Below, piece after piece: positions 123-21,016 of a DNA stretch of 33,841 nucleotides (position 1 is the first letter of the stretch; each line of letters opens with the position of its first letter). Made by a program: the position numbers and the translations under genes. The stretch spans positions 1 to 33,841 of the forward strand of contig JADYYS010000008.1 of assembly GCA_020853525.1 (NCBI GenBank), read 5' to 3'. This stretch comes from Ardenticatenales bacterium (GTDB lineage Bacteria > Chloroflexota > Anaerolineae > Epilineales > Epilineaceae). The notes below the pieces were generated by a model, which saw only the letters and a list, made by a program, of their open reading frames with translations, did not search any database and was not told the DNA's origin.

Positions 123-325
123 CTAGGGCGTGTTTGCAGACCCAGTCCCGGCAGCTAAAGCTGGCCGGCTAGAGGCGCCCCTAGCGGGTCGCCATGGTGC
201 CCGCCTTCGCGGGCACCCCGAGGTTTGAAGCGCCCGCGCAGGCGGGCGCAATGGCCGAAGGCCATCAGCCGGCCGGCTTCAGCCGCCGGTCTTTTCCGTG
301 GCCACCCTTTGCAAACACGCCTTAG
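123..325. mobile_element. MITE-like element with 16-bp terminal inverted repeats
   Basis: CTAGGGCGTGTTTGCA at 123-138 is matched by its inverted form TGCAAACACGCCTTAG at 310-325, 15 of 16 bases. The interval is about 200 bases, has no transposase and contains family B repeat 148-289. CTAG/TTAG at the tips would fit a TNA-type target duplication, as in some IS5-group elements, but that is inference. The right tip supplies the TAA stop (322-324, minus strand) of the next gene. Confidence 0.55.
148..289. repeat. Bipartite inverted repeat element, family B copy 1
   Basis: A minus-oriented unit (148-223) is followed at once by a plus-oriented unit (226-289), making an imperfect palindrome of about 140 bases. 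Each unit has an outer CCGGC(A/G)GCTGAAGC-type half and an inner GTGCCCGC-type hairpin next to ATGGC. The same bipartite layout recurs at 17450-17592, which marks it as a dispersed family and not a chance structure. Confidence 0.8.
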
Positions 326-1542
326 CCCGCCATCACCCCGCCCACCGCTGCCAACGCCAGCTGGAACGCCCCCATCGCCCCGGCCGCGAACGCCGCGGCG
401 TAGCCGAGCCGCGCCAGCTCGACGCGCGGTGCGGCACGGGTCAGGGCCACGACGAGCGCCAGCCCGATCGCCAGGTCGAAGCTGCCGGCCACGAGCCGCG
501 GTGTGATGCCGGTCGGGGGCAGCGGTACTCCGGCGACGACGAACGCGATGCCGGCAGCGGCGAGCCAGCCGACGACGGACGGCGGAGCACCTTCCGCCGC
601 GCCCGCGGTCCGCTGGCCGACGACCGCCGCTGCCAGCAGCCCGGTGCCGGTGAGCACGAGGAGCAGGGACAGCGGGCCGACCGTCGGGACGAGGATGCGC
701 GATGCGGGCCAGAGCACGACGAGCGCCCACATCGACAGGTTCCAGGCCGACGGCTTGGTCGACACCGGCAGCAAGCGGCGCATGACCAGGACCGCCGCCA
801 ACGTCCAGACGGCAGCGAACCAGGCATCGAGCGACGCCGTTCCGGACAGCGCGGAACGCCACGGCACGAGGCGTGCGAGCGCCGTCCCAAGCGCGACGGC
901 CGACAGCACCGCCAGGACGGGCAGGAAAGGACGCACGGCGCGGCTGAACGACAGCATCCGTGCAGCGAAGGCGGTCTCGGCCGGCGCACCGTCGAGCGTC
1001 GTCGCGGCTGCCAGATGCATCCCGGCGACGGCGGCCGCGGCGAACAGCCATGCCATGAGGAACAGTTGATGCAGCCGCAGCGTCGGCCCGCCGGCGGGTG
1101 TCGGGCCGGGTTCGACGTGCACGTTGAACCCGGCGTCGGGGTAGATCGTGCAGTCCATCGCGTAGTCGCCGACGACCGCGAACTGGCGCGCCCAGCGCTG
1201 GCCGGGTGCCAGGACGAACGGTCCGAAGGCATGGTCCTGGACATCGTGGTTGACGACGATCAGCCGGTTGCCGACGGTGGTGCCGACGCGCTGCGGCAGC
1301 ACGTCGGCCACGGACTCGCCGCGCGCGACGCGCTCGGCGGTGCCCGGAGGGATCGTGTACACGTCGTCGCGGGTCGCGCGGCGCACCGGATCGAGGCGCG
1401 CCGCGGCGGCGATGGCCACGGCTCCGACCACGGCGAATGCCAGCGCCCCGCGGACGGCGCGCGCGCGGCGGGGCGCGTCGTCGATCTTCGCGGCGGTGTC
1501 GGACATCGTGGCGGGCGTCCGCTGTGCCTCCGTGGGCGTCAT
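322..1542 (-). CDS. Membrane protein with N-terminal cupredoxin-like domain
   Basis: The 406-residue product has one membrane segment (about 31-49), then an extracytoplasmic domain (about 60-147), then about seven more membrane segments to the C-terminus. The soluble part looks like a cupredoxin fold: a beta-rich VVNHDVQDHAFGPF stretch (His99, His104), then a GDYAMDC stretch (Cys131) and NVHVEP (His142). The usual Cys-x-x-His...Met ligand run after the cysteine is not intact: Tyr134 sits where His is expected. Copper binding is therefore not assured. Its ATG overlaps the SCO1 stop by 4 nt (ATGA), so the two are probably co-translated. SCO1 partnership suggests a role in copper handling or respiratory oxidase assembly, but no oxidase gene is present here. 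The TAA stop lies in the tip of a MITE-like element. Confidence 0.75.
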   Translation of the reverse strand: MTPTEAQRTPATMSDTAAKIDDAPRRARAVRGALAFAVVGAVAIAAAARLDPVRRATRDDVYTIPPGTAERVARGESVADVLPQRVGTTVGNRLIVVNHDVQDHAFGPFVLAPGQRWARQFAVVGDYAMDCTIYPDAGFNVHVEPGPTPAGGPTLRLHQLFLMAWLFAAAAVAGMHLAAATTLDGAPAETAFAARMLSFSRAVRPFLPVLAVLSAVALGTALARLVPWRSALSGTASLDAWFAAVWTLAAVLVMRRLLPVSTKPSAWNLSMWALVVLWPASRILVPTVGPLSLLLVLTGTGLLAAAVVGQRTAGAAEGAPPSVVGWLAAAGIAFVVAGVPLPPTGITPRLVAGSFDLAIGLALVVALTRAAPRVELARLGYAAAFAAGAMGAFQLALAAVGGVMAG

Positions 1543-2459
1543 CGAGCCTTGGCCGCACGGTGATCACTGACCAGGACGTTGACGTCGGCGGCCAGTTCGG
1601 CCGGATCGAATGGCGCCAGGTAGGACGAGCGCAGCCGGCCCTCGGGGTCGATGAGGAACACGACGCCCGAGTGCGCGACCGTGTAGGCCGGCGAGCCGGG
1701 CTCGAAGCCGCCGGGCACTCCGGCGTTGTGACCGAGGGCCGATGAGCCCGCGGCGCGGTCGTCGTCGCCGGCCGCCGCGTCACCGCTGTGGTCGTCGTCC
1801 GGGAGATCCGCAGCCCCACCGTGACCGTCGCCCGCCGCCTCGTCGTGTCCGGCGATCTGTGCCGCCCGGGTCGCGACGTCCGGCGGGAGATCGCGCGTGT
1901 ACGTCGTCCCAAAGGCGTCGGCGATCGCCGGCAGGCCGTCGCCCGCTTCGAGGCCGACGAATGACGGGTCGAACCCGGCCATGTAGCGGCCGAGAACATC
2001 GGGCGTATCGCGCTCCGGGTCGACGGTGATCATCGCCACGTCGAGCGCGTTCGACCCGTCGCCGAGGGCGGCCTTGGCCGCGGCGAGGAGAGCCAGCGTC
2101 TGGGGGCAGACGTCCGGGCACGTGGTGTAGCCGAAGAACAGGGCCACGACCTTGCCGCGACGCTCGGCCAGGTCCCACGGCGCGCCGGCGGTGTCCCAGG
2201 CGCGGACGTCGGGGGCCGGCAAGGCGGGCGAGAGCACGAAGCCGTGCAGTTCGGCGGCCGCGGCATCCGCGGGGACATCGTCGCGCACGCCGTCCGGCAC
2301 ATCGGTGCCCTCCGCGGTCACGTTCGGCCGGACGGACAGGTGCGCCGGCGTCGTGATCACCTGCCGTGCGATCAGGGCGCCGGCCGCCAGGAGCGCCGCG
2401 AGGGCCGCGGGGGCCAACCACCGGGAGCCGTGCGTAGCGCGTCGTTCGGGGGGTGTCAT
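1539..2459 (-). CDS. SCO1/SenC family copper chaperone-like protein
   Basis: The protein has 306 residues: an N-terminal membrane anchor (about 15-33), then a thioredoxin-fold SCO domain. The family motif is present as TTCPDVCP (Cys114 and Cys118), with the conserved distal histidine in YTVAHSG (His263). In characterised members these three residues bind copper, and the protein delivers it to cytochrome oxidase CuA or acts as a thiol reductase. Between about residues 189 and 257 lies an unusual Asp/Gly/His-rich insert (His205, His213, His224, His244) absent from typical SCO proteins; it could be a flexible metal-binding loop. The gene is 4-nt overlapped with the downstream cupredoxin-like gene. 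An inverted repeat lies upstream at 2498-2524. Confidence 0.92.
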   Translation of the reverse strand: MTPPERRATHGSRWLAPAALAALLAAGALIARQVITTPAHLSVRPNVTAEGTDVPDGVRDDVPADAAAAELHGFVLSPALPAPDVRAWDTAGAPWDLAERRGKVVALFFGYTTCPDVCPQTLALLAAAKAALGDGSNALDVAMITVDPERDTPDVLGRYMAGFDPSFVGLEAGDGLPAIADAFGTTYTRDLPPDVATRAAQIAGHDEAAGDGHGGAADLPDDDHSGDAAAGDDDRAAGSSALGHNAGVPGGFEPGSPAYTVAHSGVVFLIDPEGRLRSSYLAPFDPAELAADVNVLVSDHRAAKAR

Positions 2460-2497
2460 GGGGTCATCGTCCTGGTCGCTAGTTGCCGGAATGCACG

Positions 2498-2524
2498 CTG
2501 GCCGCCGTGCGGGACGGCGGCCAG
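2498..2524 (-). terminator. Perfect 11-bp inverted repeat between two minus-strand genes
   Basis: CTGGCCGCCGT and ACGGCGGCCAG are exact reverse complements around a GCGGG loop, and flanking bases could extend the stem by about three pairs. It sits between the His-rich membrane gene and the SCO1 gene. No T-run follows, so it may be an intrinsic-like terminator, an mRNA stabiliser or an attenuator for the SCO1 operon. Confidence 0.55.
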
Positions 2525-2574
2525 TGTACAGGAGGTTTATGATGACGGGCCGTACATGAATCGCCCATGCGCCC

Positions 2575-3198
2575 CTATGCGGCGCTCGTCAAGCCTGCCG
2601 GCTTCCGCGTGCACGAGCACGTCGGGGGATGCGCGACATACTCGGCCTTCGACGGGTACATGTGCTTGTACATGGCGATGACCATCGGGATGAACACGAC
2701 CGTGTTGTAGAAGAGGTGGAGCTCGACGCGGAACTGGTGGGGCTTGTCGCCCAGCTGGAACAGCACCCACTGGAGAATGCTCGTCGGAACCGCCGAGCCG
2801 AACAGGTTCTGGTGCAGGGCGTACTGTGCCTGAAGCAGCAAGTGCTCGATGTGGTGCCAGAACTGGATCGCGAGTGAAATGGTCCACCACGTGCGCGACG
2901 AACCCTTGAAGCCCGGCCGCAGCAGGAACAGACCGATCAGCATGACGATCGCGTAGCCGTAATGGAGCGTCTCGCTCTTGGCGAGCCACGGGAAGAACTG
3001 CCCGAGGAACCCGCGCGACGCCGGACGCGGCCACCCGAGGACGAACACCTGGACGGCCTGGGTAAGGTGCTCGGCCCAGTGCGCGAGCACGATGAACAGG
3101 TAGACCTGCAGCGCGCGCTCGTGCCACACGTTGTTCAAGCGGTCCATCATGTTCGCCCAGCCCGAGACGCGGGGCGCGGACAGCGTGGAAGTGGTCAT
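2575..3198 (-). CDS. Histidine-rich multi-pass membrane protein, unknown function
   Basis: From the ATG at 3198, preceded by GAGGAG about 12 nt upstream, the product has 207 residues; an upstream in-frame ATG at 3354 would add an Arg-rich tail that overlaps mutM and is unlikely. I see four or five hydrophobic segments (about 30-54, 79-95, 106-124, 138-150, 160-178). Histidines lie in or next to these segments: His40 and His44 (HWAEH), His79, His115, His116 and His119 (WHHIEH), and His161. HxxxH and HHxxH pairs inside membrane helices recall membrane metal or haem sites, but I do not recognise the family. The protein is aromatic-rich and has a promoter of its own. The neighbouring SCO1 and cupredoxin-like genes make a metal link possible; this is inference only. 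Confidence 0.75.
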   Translation of the reverse strand: MTTSTLSAPRVSGWANMMDRLNNVWHERALQVYLFIVLAHWAEHLTQAVQVFVLGWPRPASRGFLGQFFPWLAKSETLHYGYAIVMLIGLFLLRPGFKGSSRTWWTISLAIQFWHHIEHLLLQAQYALHQNLFGSAVPTSILQWVLFQLGDKPHQFRVELHLFYNTVVFIPMVIAMYKHMYPSKAEYVAHPPTCSCTRKPAGLTSAA

Positions 3199-3234
3199 GG
3201 TTCGGGTCGACTCCTCGTTCCTGGAATGATCCCG

Positions 3235-3263
3235 ATTATCCTGCGGCGTCCGGATCGCCGCAA
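3235..3263 (-). promoter_or_regulatory. Sigma70-type promoter for the His-rich membrane gene
   Basis: On the minus strand TTGCGG (3258-3263) and GATAAT (3235-3240) are 17 bp apart. The -10 matches consensus in 5 of 6 bases and the -35 in 3 of 6. Predicted transcription starts near 3228, about 30 nt before the ATG at 3198, with GAGGAG between. This supports the shorter start for that gene. Confidence 0.55.
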
Positions 3264-4183: not shown

Positions 4184-4216
4184 GGGCCGATTGTACCTTC
4201 CGCGCGCCCATCCCCT

Positions 4217-16308: not shown

Positions 16309-17460
16309 ATGCGCTACGCGCACATCACCGGTTGGGGCGCCTACACGCCGCCCCGCATCGTCACGAACGAAGAGCTGAGCCATCTCGTCGAGACCTCGGA
16401 CGAGTGGATCGTCGAGCGCACCGGCATCCGGACGCGGCACATCGCCGACGCCGAGGACCACACGAGCACGATGGCGATCAAGGCCGGGCGCGAGGCGCTC
16501 AAGGTGGCCAACCTGGATCCCGCCAAGCTCGATCTCGTCATCTGCGCCACGAGCACGCCCGACTACCTGATGCCGAACACGGCCAGCCTGGTCCAGGACG
16601 GCCTCGGCGCCTCGCACGCCGGTGCGTTCGACCTGAACGCGGCGTGTTCAGGCTTCGTGTACGGCCTGACCGTCGGCGCGGCGATGCTCAGGAGCGGCCT
16701 GTACAAGAACGTCCTCGTCATCGGCGCCGAGGCGATGAGCCGGGTGATGGACTGGACGGACCGCACGACATGCGTGCTGTTCGGCGATGGCGCGGGCGCC
16801 GTCGTCCTCGAGGCCAGCGACGAGCCGGGCGGCGTGATGAGCTGCCGGCTCGGCTCGGACGGCTCGAGCGCGGACGTCCTCAAGGTCGCGCTCGGCACGC
16901 GCGTGCCGTTGAACCCGCTGAACATGGTGAACGGCAACGGCCCGTACATGAAGATGTCGGGCAACGAGGTCTTCCGTTTCGCCACGAAGACGATGAACCA
17001 GGTGACCCGCCAGGTGGCGGCCGAGGCCGGCATCGCGGTGGACGACATCGACCTGATCATCCCGCACCAGGCGAACCAGCGGATCCTGGCCACCGCCGCC
17101 AAGCAGCTGAACTACCCGATCGACCGGATCTACTCCAACCTCGAGCGGGTCGGCAATACCTCGGCGGCCAGCATCCCGATCGCGATGATCGACGCGCTCA
17201 AGGAAGGCCGCCTGCATGCGGGCGACCACCTCCTGATGATCGGCTTCGGCGGTGGCCTGACGTGGGGCGCGTGCCTGGTCCAGTGGAGCTACAGCCCCGA
17301 GGACCGGCGCTGGTCGTCCTACAAGCGCACCCGCCAGGCGATGCGCATGGCGCTGGCCGGGCCGCGCCGGTGGGCGAGCCGGATCGAGCGGGGGCTGGAC
17401 TTCTGGGAGCTGCGGCGGCGGCGGGCGGAGCGGAAGAGGACGAAGAAGTCCGGCGGCTGA
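16309..17460 (+). CDS. fabH: 3-oxoacyl-ACP synthase III (KAS III) with basic C-terminal tail
   Basis: KAS III starts fatty acid synthesis by condensing an acyl-CoA primer with malonyl-ACP. The catalytic residues are Cys113 (NAACSGF), His253 (IPHQANQRI) and Asn283 (VGNTSAA). The family core ends near residue 326 (GLTWGACLVQW). Here about 57 more residues follow, very rich in Arg and Lys and ending KRTKKSGG; this tail is unusual. The stop codon and last codons lie in a family B repeat (17450-17592), so the tail end is partly made of repeat sequence. GGAGG precedes the ATG. It follows fabF in the same operon. Confidence 0.96.
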   Translation: MRYAHITGWGAYTPPRIVTNEELSHLVETSDEWIVERTGIRTRHIADAEDHTSTMAIKAGREALKVANLDPAKLDLVICATSTPDYLMPNTASLVQDGLGASHAGAFDLNAACSGFVYGLTVGAAMLRSGLYKNVLVIGAEAMSRVMDWTDRTTCVLFGDGAGAVVLEASDEPGGVMSCRLGSDGSSADVLKVALGTRVPLNPLNMVNGNGPYMKMSGNEVFRFATKTMNQVTRQVAAEAGIAVDDIDLIIPHQANQRILATAAKQLNYPIDRIYSNLERVGNTSAASIPIAMIDALKEGRLHAGDHLLMIGFGGGLTWGACLVQWSYSPEDRRWSSYKRTRQAMRMALAGPRRWASRIERGLDFWELRRRRAERKRTKKSGG

Positions 17461-17592
17461 AGCCGGCCGGCTGGAGGCGGCCTTGCCAGGCCGCCGTTGC
17501 GCCCGCCCTCGCGGGCGCCCGGACATCGGAGGTGCCTGCGAAGGCAGGCACCATGGCCACAGGCCCCCAGCCAGCCGGCTTCAGCCGCTGGC
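17450..17592. repeat. Bipartite inverted repeat element, family B copy 2
   Basis: The minus unit (17450-17520) and plus unit (17531-17590) match the layout at 148-289, including the CCGGCGGCTGAAGCCGG-type arm, inner GC-rich hairpin and ATGGC. The element contains the TGA stop of fabH (17458-17460). Confidence 0.8.
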
Positions 17593-17594
17593 CG

Positions 17595-17635
17595 TTCGGC
17601 TGCCCCCATATGACTTTCGGCTGCCCCATATGACT
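17595..17635. repeat. Tandem 20/21-bp repeat upstream of gyrA
   Basis: TTCGGCTGCCCC(C)ATATGACT occurs twice back to back (17595-17615 and 17616-17635), differing by one C. It ends about 20 bases before the gyrA -10. It is either a pair of regulator sites two helical turns apart or recent slippage. Confidence 0.8.
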
Positions 17636-17714: not shown

Positions 17715-20309
17715 ATGGAAGGCGAGAGCACGAACGCCGCCGTCACGCTCGTCAACATCGACAAGGAGATGCGCGAGGCCTACCTGGATTACGCGATGAG
17801 CGTGATCACGAGCCGCGCGCTGCCCGATGTTCGCGACGGCCTCAAGCCCGTCCAGCGCCGGATTCTCTACACGATGTACGATGCCGGCCTCCGGCCGGAC
17901 CGCGCCTACAAGAAGAGCGCCGCCACCGTCGGCGACGTGCTCGGCAAGTACCACCCGCACGGGGACTCGTCCGTCTACGACGCGATGGTCCGCATGGCCC
18001 AGGACTTCTCGATGCGCTACATGCTCATCGACGGCCAGGGCAACTTCGGCTCCGTCGACGGCGACCGGGCGGCGGCCTACCGCTACACCGAAGCGCGGCC
18101 GTCGCGGATGGCGTTGGAACTCCTCGCCGACATCGACGAGGACACCGTCGACTGGCGGCCCAACTACGACGACTCGCGCCAGGAGCCGACGGTGCTGCCG
18201 GCGCGCATCCCCAACCTGCTCATCAACGGCGCGTCCGGCATCGCCGTCGGCATGGCCACGAACATCCCGCCGCACAACCTCGGCGAAGTGTGCGATGCGC
18301 TCATGTACTGCATCGACCACTGGACGACGCTGGACGACGTGACGCCCGAGGACATCCGGCAGTTCATCCACGGCCCGGACTTCCCGACCGGCGGGCAGAT
18401 CGTCGGCTTCGAGGGGATCGCCTCGGCGTACGGCACCGGGCGCGGGCGGGTGATCATGCGCGCCAAGAGCGAGTTCGAGGAGGTGCGCGGCGAGCGCATG
18501 GCGATCGTCGTCACCGAGATCCCGTTCCAGGTAAACAAGTCGACGCTCCTCGAGCGGATCGCCGAGCTCGCCCGCACGAAGCGGATCGACACGATCCACG
18601 ACCTGCGCGACGAGTCCGACCGCGACGGGATGCGGATCGTCATCGAGCTCAAGAAGGGCGCCGACGCGCACTCGACGCTGAACCGGCTGCTGAAGTACAG
18701 CCAACTGCAGCAGACGTTCGGCATCAACACGCTGGCGCTCGTCGACGGCCAGCCGACGATGCTGCCGCTCAAGCGGATGCTGGTGCACTTCCTGGAGCAC
18801 CGCCGCGAGGTCATCCGCCGCCGCAGCGAGCACGAGCTCGAGAAGGCGCGCCAACGCCAGCACATCCTGGAAGGCCTCCTGAAGGCGATCAGCGCCCTTG
18901 ACGACGTGATCCGCACGATCCGCGCCGCCGACGACGTGGCGGATGCGCGCGACGCGCTGATGGCCCTCCTGTCGATCACCGAGGTGCAGGCGCAGGCGAT
19001 CCTGGACATGCAGCTGCGCCGGCTGGCGGCACTCGAGCGCCTGAAGATCGAGAACGAGCACGCGGAGATCACCGCCCGCATCAACTTCCTGCTCGATCTC
19101 CTGGCGCACCCCGAGAAGGTTCTCGGCGTCATCCGCGACGACCTGCAGGACATCAAGTCCACCTATGGCGATCCGCGCCGGACCGAGATCGTCGCCGGCG
19201 CCGGCGAGTTCTCGGAGGATGACCTCATCGCCTCCGAGGACGTCCTCGTCACGCTGACGGACCGCGGCTACATCAAGCGCGTCCCGGCCGACACGTACCG
19301 CAGCCAGCGCCGCGGCGGCCGCGGGATCATCGGCGCGCGCACCCGCGATGAGGACGCGCTGCAGCACGTCTTCCTGGCGAACACGCGCGACCGTCTGCTG
19401 TTCTTCACGGACCGCGGCCGCGTCTACCAGCTCCGGGCGCACCACATCCCGGCCTCGAGCCGCGAGGCGGCCGGCACGCCGCTGATCAACCTGATCCAGA
19501 TCCAGACCGGCGAGAAAGTCACGGTGGCCGTCGCCGCCCCGGAGTGGCAGTTCGAGCACGGCAACTTCCTGATCATGGCCACCCGCCGCGGCCGGATCAA
19601 GCGCACCGTCCTCTCCGAGTACGACGGTGTCCGCCCGAGCGGCCTGATCGCCGTGAACCTGGACGCCGACGACTCGCTCGACTGGGTGAAGATCACGACC
19701 GGCGAGGACGAGCTGATCTTCGTCACGCGCCTGGGCATGGCGCTGCGCTTCCACGAGCGCACCGTCCGCCCGATGGGTCGTGCGGCCGGCGGGGTGAACG
19801 CGATGCGCCTGAAGAAGGGCGACATCGTCACCGCCGTCGACCTCGTCAAGCCCGACGCCGACCTCTTCGTCATCACCACCAAGGGTTTCGGCAAGCGCTC
19901 GCCCCTGGCAGAGTACCGCCCTCTCGGCCGCTACAACCAGGGCATCCGGACGATCGACATCGGCCGCCTGGACGAGATCGGCGAGATCGTCGACGCCCGC
20001 GTCGTCGAGGACGGCACCGAGCTGACCGTCATCACGGACCGCGGGATCATCATCCGCACGTCGACGGACGAGATCAGCCGCATGGGCCGCCTGACCCGCG
20101 GCGTGCGCGTGATCCGCCTGGACAGCGGGCAGAAGGTGGCCGCGGTGGCATACATGCCGGGGCGGGCGGCGGTGGACGAGGACGCGGATGAGGAGGTCGA
20201 CGGCGACGTCGATGGCGCGGTCGCCGCGGCGCCGAACAGCATCTCGCGGGACGAAACGAACACCGCCCCAGATGACGGCACCTCGGCCCCCACGTCCCCA
20301 TCCGCGTAG
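17715..20309 (+). CDS. gyrA: DNA gyrase subunit A
   Basis: GyrA cuts and rejoins DNA in the gyrase A2B2 complex that introduces negative supercoils. The 864 residues show the breakage-reunion domain with active-site Tyr124 (AYRYTE) and the quinolone pocket [13 protein letters not shown], where Ser85 and Asp89 match E. coli Ser83 and Asp87, so the wild-type residues are present. The GyrA box QRRGGRG (531-537) distinguishes it from ParC. The C-terminal beta-propeller follows, then about 50 acidic, low-complexity residues. gyrB is not in the window. A tandem repeat and TACAAT stand upstream. Its TAG stop is the TAG of a REP head. Confidence 0.97.
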
Positions 20310-20336
20310 GGGCGACGCGAACGCGTCGCCCGATCC
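20304..20336 (+). repeat. REP copy overlapping the gyrA stop
   Basis: Arms GGGCGACGCG and CGCGTCGCCC surround AA, with head GCGTAG and tail GATCC. Compared with the copy at 5800 the two differences are paired (C to T in one arm, G to A in the other), which keeps the stem. The head TAG (20307-20309) is the gyrA stop. Confidence 0.88.
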
Positions 20337-20392
20337 AACGTCCGACCCCTCGCCGTCGTCCGCAACCCACAAACCCGCGATCCGCGCGTCAC

Positions 20393-20419
20393 GGGCGACG
20401 CGATGGCATCACCCGATCC
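20393..20419 (+). repeat. Degenerate REP copy
   Basis: This 27-base stretch differs from the REP core plus tail at four positions, with the stem partly lost. It lies between the two intact, opposed copies. Confidence 0.55.
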
Positions 20420-20443
20420 CGGTTCGCATGGCGGCCGGCCCAC

Positions 20444-20471
20444 GGGCGACGCGTTCGCGTCGCCCCTACGC
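20444..20471 (-). repeat. Inverted REP copy beside the RAYT gene
   Basis: Its reverse complement is identical over 28 bases to the copy at 20304. The two face each other about 107 bases apart, immediately downstream of the RAYT gene end (20495). Confidence 0.88.
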
Positions 20472-20494
20472 GTGGGGTGTGCAGGAGCCGTGGA

Positions 20495-21016
20495 TCATGC
20501 ATCTGGGGCGTTGGGTCGCCAGAGAAGCGGGTTGTTGGCGATGTATTGGCGGATGCGTTGGAGGTCGGGTTCGTTGCGGACGACGTGTTCGTAGTAATTC
20601 CGTTGCCAGACGGGTTGCCCAGGCGTGCCGCGCAACGCGTTGATTTGTTTGGCCGATACGGTCTTGAAGGCGCCGATCACGGCGCCCAGGGATCGCGGTG
20701 GAGGTCCGGGTCGGAAGATGTTGGAGTGCTCCTTGCCGCCCGGCGTGTGACCGGCGTTCAGCGCGATGATCCCGTGGAAGTGGTCCGGCATCACGACGTT
20801 GTCGTCGAGCCAAACGTACGGGAAGCGGTCAGCCAGCGCCCGCCAAGCCTCCTCGACAATCCGCCCGTTGGCGCTCAACACCACCCGCCCGTCCGCAACC
20901 TCGCCCAGCGCTTTCTCCCGCCCCCGCACGCACAGCGTCACGAAGTGCACTGCGGTAGATGCGTAGTCGAACGTGCGTAGCCGGATCGAGCGACGTAAGT
21001 GCGCGCGGCGCGACAC
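20495..21016 (-). CDS. REP-associated tyrosine transposase (RAYT)
   Basis: RAYTs are single-copy, HUH-type Y1 relatives of the IS200 transposase that cut REP hairpins in single-stranded DNA and are thought to spread them. The 173 residues carry the HUH motif as MPDHFHG (His79, His81), the family's early VHFVTLCVRGRE strand, a FKTVSAKQIN helix, and the catalytic Tyr region QRNYYEHVVRNEPDLQRIRQYIANNP (Tyr141 or Tyr142; split over 138-162). The length fits a complete gene. Opposed REP copies follow its 3' end, the normal REPtron arrangement, so these palindromes are the likely substrate. There are no terminal IS-like ends, as expected. Confidence 0.92.
   Translation of the reverse strand: MSRRAHLRRSIRLRTFDYASTAVHFVTLCVRGREKALGEVADGRVVLSANGRIVEEAWRALADRFPYVWLDDNVVMPDHFHGIIALNAGHTPGGKEHSNIFRPGPPPRSLGAVIGAFKTVSAKQINALRGTPGQPVWQRNYYEHVVRNEPDLQRIRQYIANNPLLWRPNAPDA

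Follow-up and report, generated by a model that had tools for sequence, protein, structure and literature searches.

An unnamed membrane protein with nine conserved histidines goes with UnbU and stands apart from the SCO1-cupredoxin gene pair beside it

The window, meaning the whole 33,841-nucleotide stretch of DNA analyzed here, is contig C8 of an Ardenticatenales genome (G000; 4.27 Mb, 96.85% complete). It carries three neighboring minus-strand genes, encoding a small histidine-rich membrane protein (P0001), a SCO1 protein (P0002), and a polytopic protein with a cupredoxin-type domain (P0003). We find that these represent two separate functions lying side by side and not one module. The SCO1 and cupredoxin genes form a real pair across the window's class. 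P0001, in the samples studied, is accompanied by UnbU, whereas UnbU is often present where P0001 is not. UnbU and UnbV, which we take to be E5 and E4 of enediyne clusters, are themselves known genes; what is new is P0001 as their partner and its spread outside enediyne clusters. No published link between P0001 and UnbU/UnbV was found in a search of open-licence PubMed Central (PMC) papers.

Co-occurrence of P0001 with UnbU

UnbU was sought in 49 genomes carrying P0001, taken from 50 of 80 loci chosen for spread. It was present in 47 of them, in 43 with an E value below 1e-70; assemblies of 1.4 and 3.0 Mb account for the two without a match. After removal of the six genomes that had supplied rows of the UnbU profile, the count was 41 of 43. 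Two samples served as background: 297 genomes of one phylum (that of G237, locus L061, an Acidobacteriaceae record), with the best 10 or 8 candidates scored per genome, and 199 genomes of the window's class, with the best 16 or 12 scored. In the phylum sample, UnbU was found in 34 genomes at an E value of 1e-10 and P0001 in 3, all of which also have UnbU. In the class sample, for which G000, G001, and G002 supplied UnbU profile rows, P0001 occurred in 2 genomes, both with UnbU, and UnbU in 5 (two of them weak matches). Fisher's test of 47/49 versus 31/294, the latter being the phylum-sample genomes with UnbU among those lacking P0001, gave p = 2.5e-34, uncorrected for relatedness and phylum.

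Assuming the same contig, P0001 and UnbU would lie within 50 kb of each other, on contigs over 60 kb, in 24 of the 47 genomes; 13 are on short contigs and stay undecided, and in 10 the genes are far apart or on another contig. G000 itself carries both UnbU and UnbV as well as P0001. Its UnbU gene (C50:151876-152757) adjoins a UnbV_ASPIC domain (152821-153018), and this pair sits next to a large TPR/FG-GAP gene. Since the UnbV-UnbU pair of G000 is on another contig, the place of P0001 beside SCO1 is local. In the sister genus (G002), P0001 (9855-10421) is found just upstream of UnbV and UnbU on the same strand, and the corresponding place in G001 is missing because the contig breaks off within UnbV. 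In G261, about 120 bases separate the matched parts of P0001 and UnbU, and in two Paenibacillus loci (L044 and L053) P0001 is near both UnbV and UnbU. At L044, DUF1702 and an acyl carrier protein are present too, which makes this an enediyne-like set beyond the Actinobacteria.

Gene neighborhoods of P0001

We examined 81 other P0001 loci, consisting of the best 80 of 223 relatives found in a scan of genome contigs (51 to 64% identity) and the sister-genome locus, over at most 8 kb on each side and often less. Some stretches are short, and absence of a partner thus makes its count a lower bound. Partner counts rest on tblastn because the gene-calling script was rough: it found P0001 in only 67 of the 81 loci, missing it in G002 among others, and took the wrong strand in places (for P0001 in L088, and for most of L106, L142, and L147). 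The CopC count also includes script-called genes.

Within these stretches, a relative of SCO1 or P0003 was near P0001 at none of the 81 loci, and the three-gene cluster was not seen again. The initial annotation had considered it possible that the three genes make up a module for metal acquisition or electron transfer. In 81 of 81 cases, P0001 is separate from SCO1 within the reach of the stretches, and the module does not survive this comparison. The metal or electron-transfer theme remains likely for P0001, with different partners: UnbU/UnbV, YtkA-like proteins, CopC, and a polyferredoxin.

These partners vary with lineage. Among the 48 non-actinobacterial loci, a YtkA-like gene was found at 38, a polyferredoxin gene (about 490 residues) at 39, a FixH-like gene at 38, and all three at 36, with UnbV near in 26 and UnbU in 6; no polyketide synthase (PKS) or DUF1702 gene was detected there by tblastn, and Pfam recognized DUF1702 in one of these loci, L044. 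Among the 33 actinobacterial loci, CopC was found at 26, DUF1702 or an enediyne-type PKS at 18, UnbV or UnbU at 11, and any of DUF1702, enediyne-type PKS, UnbV, and UnbU at 24.

The row of YtkA-like, Fe-S polyferredoxin, and FixH-like genes at many P0001 loci resembles ccoGHIS (fixGHIS). It differs in that P0001 has no P-type ATPase match and the polyferredoxin stays just below the Pfam cut-off (Fer4_5, 21.1 bits versus 22; its Cys pairs are invariant in 22 sequences). Nor were CcoI and CcoS recognized among the P0001 neighbors, by eye and without a dedicated search. PMC7558416 describes the CcoG polyferredoxin as reducing Cu(II) and CopC as binding copper outside the membrane.

Enediyne clusters offer the other comparison. 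On plasmid SGLP1 of S. globisporus C-1027, one helix-turn-helix gene lies between a P0001 relative annotated as "hypothetical protein" (WP_010056327.1) and a row of DUF1702, DUF1702, CRTAC1, RnfD-type, and PKS genes, and the same arrangement is found in Streptomyces sp. NBC_01237. Unlike enediyne clusters, the examined stretches of the window, G000:C50, G001, and G002 hold no PKS-sized gene; in the window, no enediyne PKS lies near P0001, the largest gene call being 933 amino acids (judged by size alone, with the genome not searched). PMC5181780 gives E3/E4/E5/E/E10 as the genes common to all enediyne clusters, and P0001 is not among these five.

Sequence, predicted structure, and family of P0001

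P0001 (ATG at 3198, stop at 2575) is 207 amino acids long and carries the motifs HWAEH at residues 40 to 44 (HxxxH) and HHIEH at 115 to 119 (HHxxH). An AlphaFold2 model (mean predicted local distance difference test [pLDDT] score 90.1, predicted template modeling score 0.82) shows four long helices, compatible with a membrane protein, and the two motifs sit in the long helices 26 to 52 and 99 to 128, which bears out the small membrane protein with histidine pairs in helices that had been described at the outset.

Conservation of these histidines, the lack of which the initial annotation would have taken as a refutation, is pronounced. Nine are conserved (residues 26, 40, 44, 79, 115, 116, 119, 161, and 179); eight are invariant in 82 of 82 sequences and H116 is kept in 81. 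In an alignment of 56 members, 42 residues are invariant, including E43, E76, E118, R157, and a C-terminal CxC, and 9 of the 12 histidines of P0001 fall within these 42 of its 207 positions (hypergeometric p = 4e-5). The helix boundaries place H40, H44, H79, H115, H116, H119, and H161 towards one end of the bundle and H26 and H179 at the other. The stretch flanking the loop from helix 2 to helix 3 is the richest in Lys and Arg (mean 3.2, versus 2.1 and 0.6 at the two other loops), which weakly suggests that the histidine-rich end faces outwards.

Relatives of P0001 occur in records named Planctomycetota, Acidobacteria, Micromonospora and other actinobacteria, Gemmatimonadetes, and Bacteriovorax, and further in Elusimicrobia, Paenibacillus, Fodinibius, and others. 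The family has no name in Pfam, NCBIfam, PHROGs, or PADLOC. The best VIA match is a designed helical bundle (Z 9.1), comparison with a viral structure library gave no E value of 0.001 or below, and the sole match of the P0001 profile to PDB sequences is a partial one to xenorhodopsin (E 0.14).

Two further ideas about P0001 were rejected. An internal duplication (HxxEH in helices 1 and 3, E..LHxxY in helices 2 and 4) looks neat by eye and fails shuffle tests: profile comparison gave an E value of 0.32, with 149 of 200 shuffles equal or better; consensus comparison was equaled or bettered by 786 of 2000 shuffles; and 9 of 56 single sequences fell below 0.05. A phage origin found no match among phage records, none confirmed in viral contigs, and no PHROG or PADLOC family. 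A distant relative with 34.5% identity is encoded on a plasmid of the cyanobacterium Geminocystis (L148:9980-10444; NZ_AP014826.1), among genes mostly of unknown kind and possibly phage-like; judged by eye, eight of the nine histidines are retained, and H179 and the CxC are absent.

The SCO1-cupredoxin pair

P0002 matches the SCO1/SenC profile PF02630 (E 4.3e-28; 98.4 bits versus a cut-off of 22.8) and carries the SCO1 motif, CxxxC plus a later His, as TTCPDVCP at residue 112 and AHSG at 262. The His/Asp-rich insert noted initially is present, with 4 His and 10 Asp in the 61 residues from 197 to 257. In relative L117, the SCO1 flanks of this stretch align with almost nothing between them; the insert is therefore not general, and we give it little weight.

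The modeled P0003 has one transmembrane helix and a confident beta domain at about residues 59 to 144, followed by low-confidence helices (mean pLDDT 63.2). Although P0003 has no Pfam match, ranks 1 to 33 of its PDB matches are all cupredoxins or larger copper proteins containing such domains (best E 1.4e-3, probability 1.00), placing the domain in the cupredoxin beta-sandwich fold. The ligand set of type 1 copper cupredoxins is His, Cys, His, Met. With ligand positions judged by eye, C131 is present in all 7 aligned sequences and H104 in 6 of them, and Tyr and Phe replace the second His and the Met in P0003, so that its copper set is incomplete; relative L146 has a His after the Cys, i.e., the second His. 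The initial description of a polytopic protein with a degenerate cupredoxin domain thus holds. The long membrane part is common, among the seven aligned sequences, to P0003, the G001 copy, and a second G000 copy. The latter two add a cytochrome c domain that P0003 lacks (above the Pfam cut-off in the second G000 copy, below it in the G001 copy), and no SCO1 was seen beside either. Two relatives (L141:8114-9685 and L140:7476-8981) combine cupredoxin, membrane part, and C-terminal cytochrome c in one chain, the last of these exceeding the Pfam cut-off in L141 and falling below it in L140.

Of the 199 genomes of the class, 24 carry a P0003 relative, at a total of 26 places if the one in the window is counted. 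At 20 of the other 25, SCO1 lies within about 1.5 kb; the stretch lacks it at L108, L109, L111, L127, and L131, two of which (L109 and L111) are short. This supports, across the class, the linkage that had been postulated between the two genes, which overlap by 4 bases in the window. Four longer stretches, L143 to L146, were examined around short, cupredoxin-only relatives. In three of these (L143, L144, and L145), SCO1 and the cupredoxin gene stand together with oxidase genes and a SURF1-type gene as cytochrome c oxidase operons (COX1, COX2, and SURF1 checked with Pfam in L143 alone, the rest judged by eye), answering the question of proximity to oxidase genes; L146 combines SCO1 and the cupredoxin gene with genes for a YtkA-like protein and, by Pfam, the copper chaperone PCuAC. 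Given the conserved pairing and the oxidase-operon context, we therefore read the pair as part of ordinary copper-site assembly for a terminal oxidase. As with SCO1 within oxidase operons (coxB-coxA-coxC, SURF1), SCO1 adjoins a cupredoxin-domain gene in this class; unlike in those operons, P0003 has a long extra membrane part, and no oxidase gene was recognized among the gene calls of the window.

Proposed functions and alternatives

Our joint reading, to which we give about even credence, sets a SCO1/cupredoxin copper assembly for an oxidase beside a separate membrane metal-site protein, P0001, that serves UnbU/UnbV. SCO1 and the cupredoxin-domain protein would assemble the copper site of the terminal oxidase. 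From its sequence and company, we infer that P0001 is a membrane metal-site protein and that its metal is probably copper: the conserved histidines in what is taken as the outward half of the bundle may coordinate one metal ion or several, with copper the most likely. P0001 would work for a membrane unit of UnbU, which is RnfD-like and presumably carries flavin, as RnfD-type subunits do, and UnbV, an FG-GAP protein that is presumably exported. Lineage-specific outer proteins (YtkA-like, CopC) and the CcoG-like polyferredoxin might reduce or hand over the metal. The dependence of P0001 on UnbU is supported by co-occurrence and neighborhood, and the combination of CcoG, CopC, and a flavin RnfD-type protein with a P0001 full of conserved histidines suggests that P0001 is a redox protein with copper or iron, coupled to UnbU, and that UnbV lies outside.

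Several observations weigh against this reading of P0001. UnbU often occurs without P0001, as in the 31 phylum-sample genomes above, so that P0001 is not essential to UnbU, and the UnbU background comprises one other phylum and the window's class, not Actinobacteria, with relatedness uncorrected. UnbU was within the examined stretch at only 17 of the 81 P0001 loci, and at 9 of the 81 none of the partners sought was found. UnbV counts are not specific because FG-GAP/ASPIC genes are many: G000 alone has 15 UnbV_ASPIC matches and a single UnbU. G000, G001, and G002 gave no polyferredoxin match while three positive genomes did, and 11 other genomes with P0001 gave none either; there is therefore no universal copper partner. 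On the C-1027 plasmid, the P0001 relative is adjoined by a small protein without a Pfam match and not by CopC. Finally, comparison of P0001 with PDB structures gave no E value of 0.001 or below, and no fold relative names a metal site.

The main rival, which we regard as doubtful, is a b-type cytochrome in which histidine pairs across the four helices of P0001 bind heme and electrons move between an outer acceptor and either UnbU or quinol. A four-helix membrane bundle with histidines on every helix would suit it, as would the redox nature of the RnfD-like and Fe-S partners, and the VIA matches include cytochrome b561, Dcytb, and b6 (Z 6.7 to 7.3); such scores, including 7.3 for the b561-like fold, are however within the range common for helical bundles. 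Seven histidines plus conserved Glu residues 43, 76, 118, and 159 towards one end of the bundle exceed what heme needs, and no cytochrome b family appears among the Pfam matches of the 56 members. Quite unlikely, in our view, is another reading in which P0001 would be a di-iron membrane enzyme of desaturase/hydroxylase type that takes electrons from UnbU and works on an acyl or polyene substrate (a polyketide in enediyne clusters). The same Pfam matches, followed up to an E value of 1, also lack any desaturase or hydroxylase family. The histidine boxes of membrane desaturases and hydroxylases have a spacing like that of HxxxH and HHxxH, and the 18 actinobacterial loci with an enediyne-type PKS or DUF1702 would fit a polyketide substrate; the non-actinobacterial loci, where tblastn found no PKS or DUF1702 and Pfam one DUF1702, in L044, and the common enediyne set of PMC5181780 argue against it.

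That P0001, SCO1, and P0003 nevertheless act as one module we consider very improbable. They share a strand and a copper theme, and only 115 bases separate P0001 from SCO1. This gap, however, holds a hairpin, none of the other loci keeps P0001 with SCO1 or P0003 in the stretches examined, and in the sister genus P0001 is with UnbV-UnbU.

A broader idea, unlikely in our estimate, is that P0001, UnbU, and UnbV would together be an undescribed membrane metallo-oxidoreductase fed by copper-handling proteins, a version of which enediyne producers recruited for warhead chemistry or containment. If so, UnbU/UnbV would be at root a respiratory-type redox unit and not enediyne enzymes. To our knowledge, what UnbU and UnbV contribute to enediyne formation is unsettled. 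A conserved, unnamed partner with nine conserved histidines, present in many bacteria outside enediyne clusters beside copper-type and Fe-S genes, turns a membrane redox or metal unit of UnbU/UnbV into a testable idea, and P0001 may help to work out what the two proteins do.

Gene layout and other features of the window

The three genes are present as the initial annotation had them (Table 1). Pfam names SCO1 alone among them and NCBIfam none of the three. The hairpin between P0001 and SCO1, which possibly separates the two genes transcriptionally, is absent from the list of the terminator scan.

Table 1. Features at the P0001-SCO1-P0003 locus of the window
Feature	Coordinates	Strand	Description	z
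P0001	2575..3198	-	Unnamed four-helix membrane protein; nine conserved His and C-terminal CxC; its family is a partner of UnbU/UnbV	
Hairpin	2498..2524	-	11-bp perfect hairpin without T run, inside the P0001-SCO1 gap	-5.7
P0002	1539..2459	-	SCO1 with CxxxC (C114, C118), later His (H263), and 61-residue His/Asp-rich insert	
P0003	322..1542	-	Transmembrane helix, cupredoxin-type domain with incomplete copper ligands, polytopic membrane part	

No Rfam family or tRNA was found in the window. Elsewhere in it, 20302-20475 and 20498-20950 contain a pair of 30-nucleotide perfect inverted repeats, perhaps of the repetitive extragenic palindromic type, beside a Y1 transposase gene (PF01797), with related copies at 4214 and 5798. 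At 3-294 and 17450-17596 there is a dispersed repeat with a 74-nucleotide inverted repeat; one copy lies at the very start of the contig, where the assembly may have broken in it.

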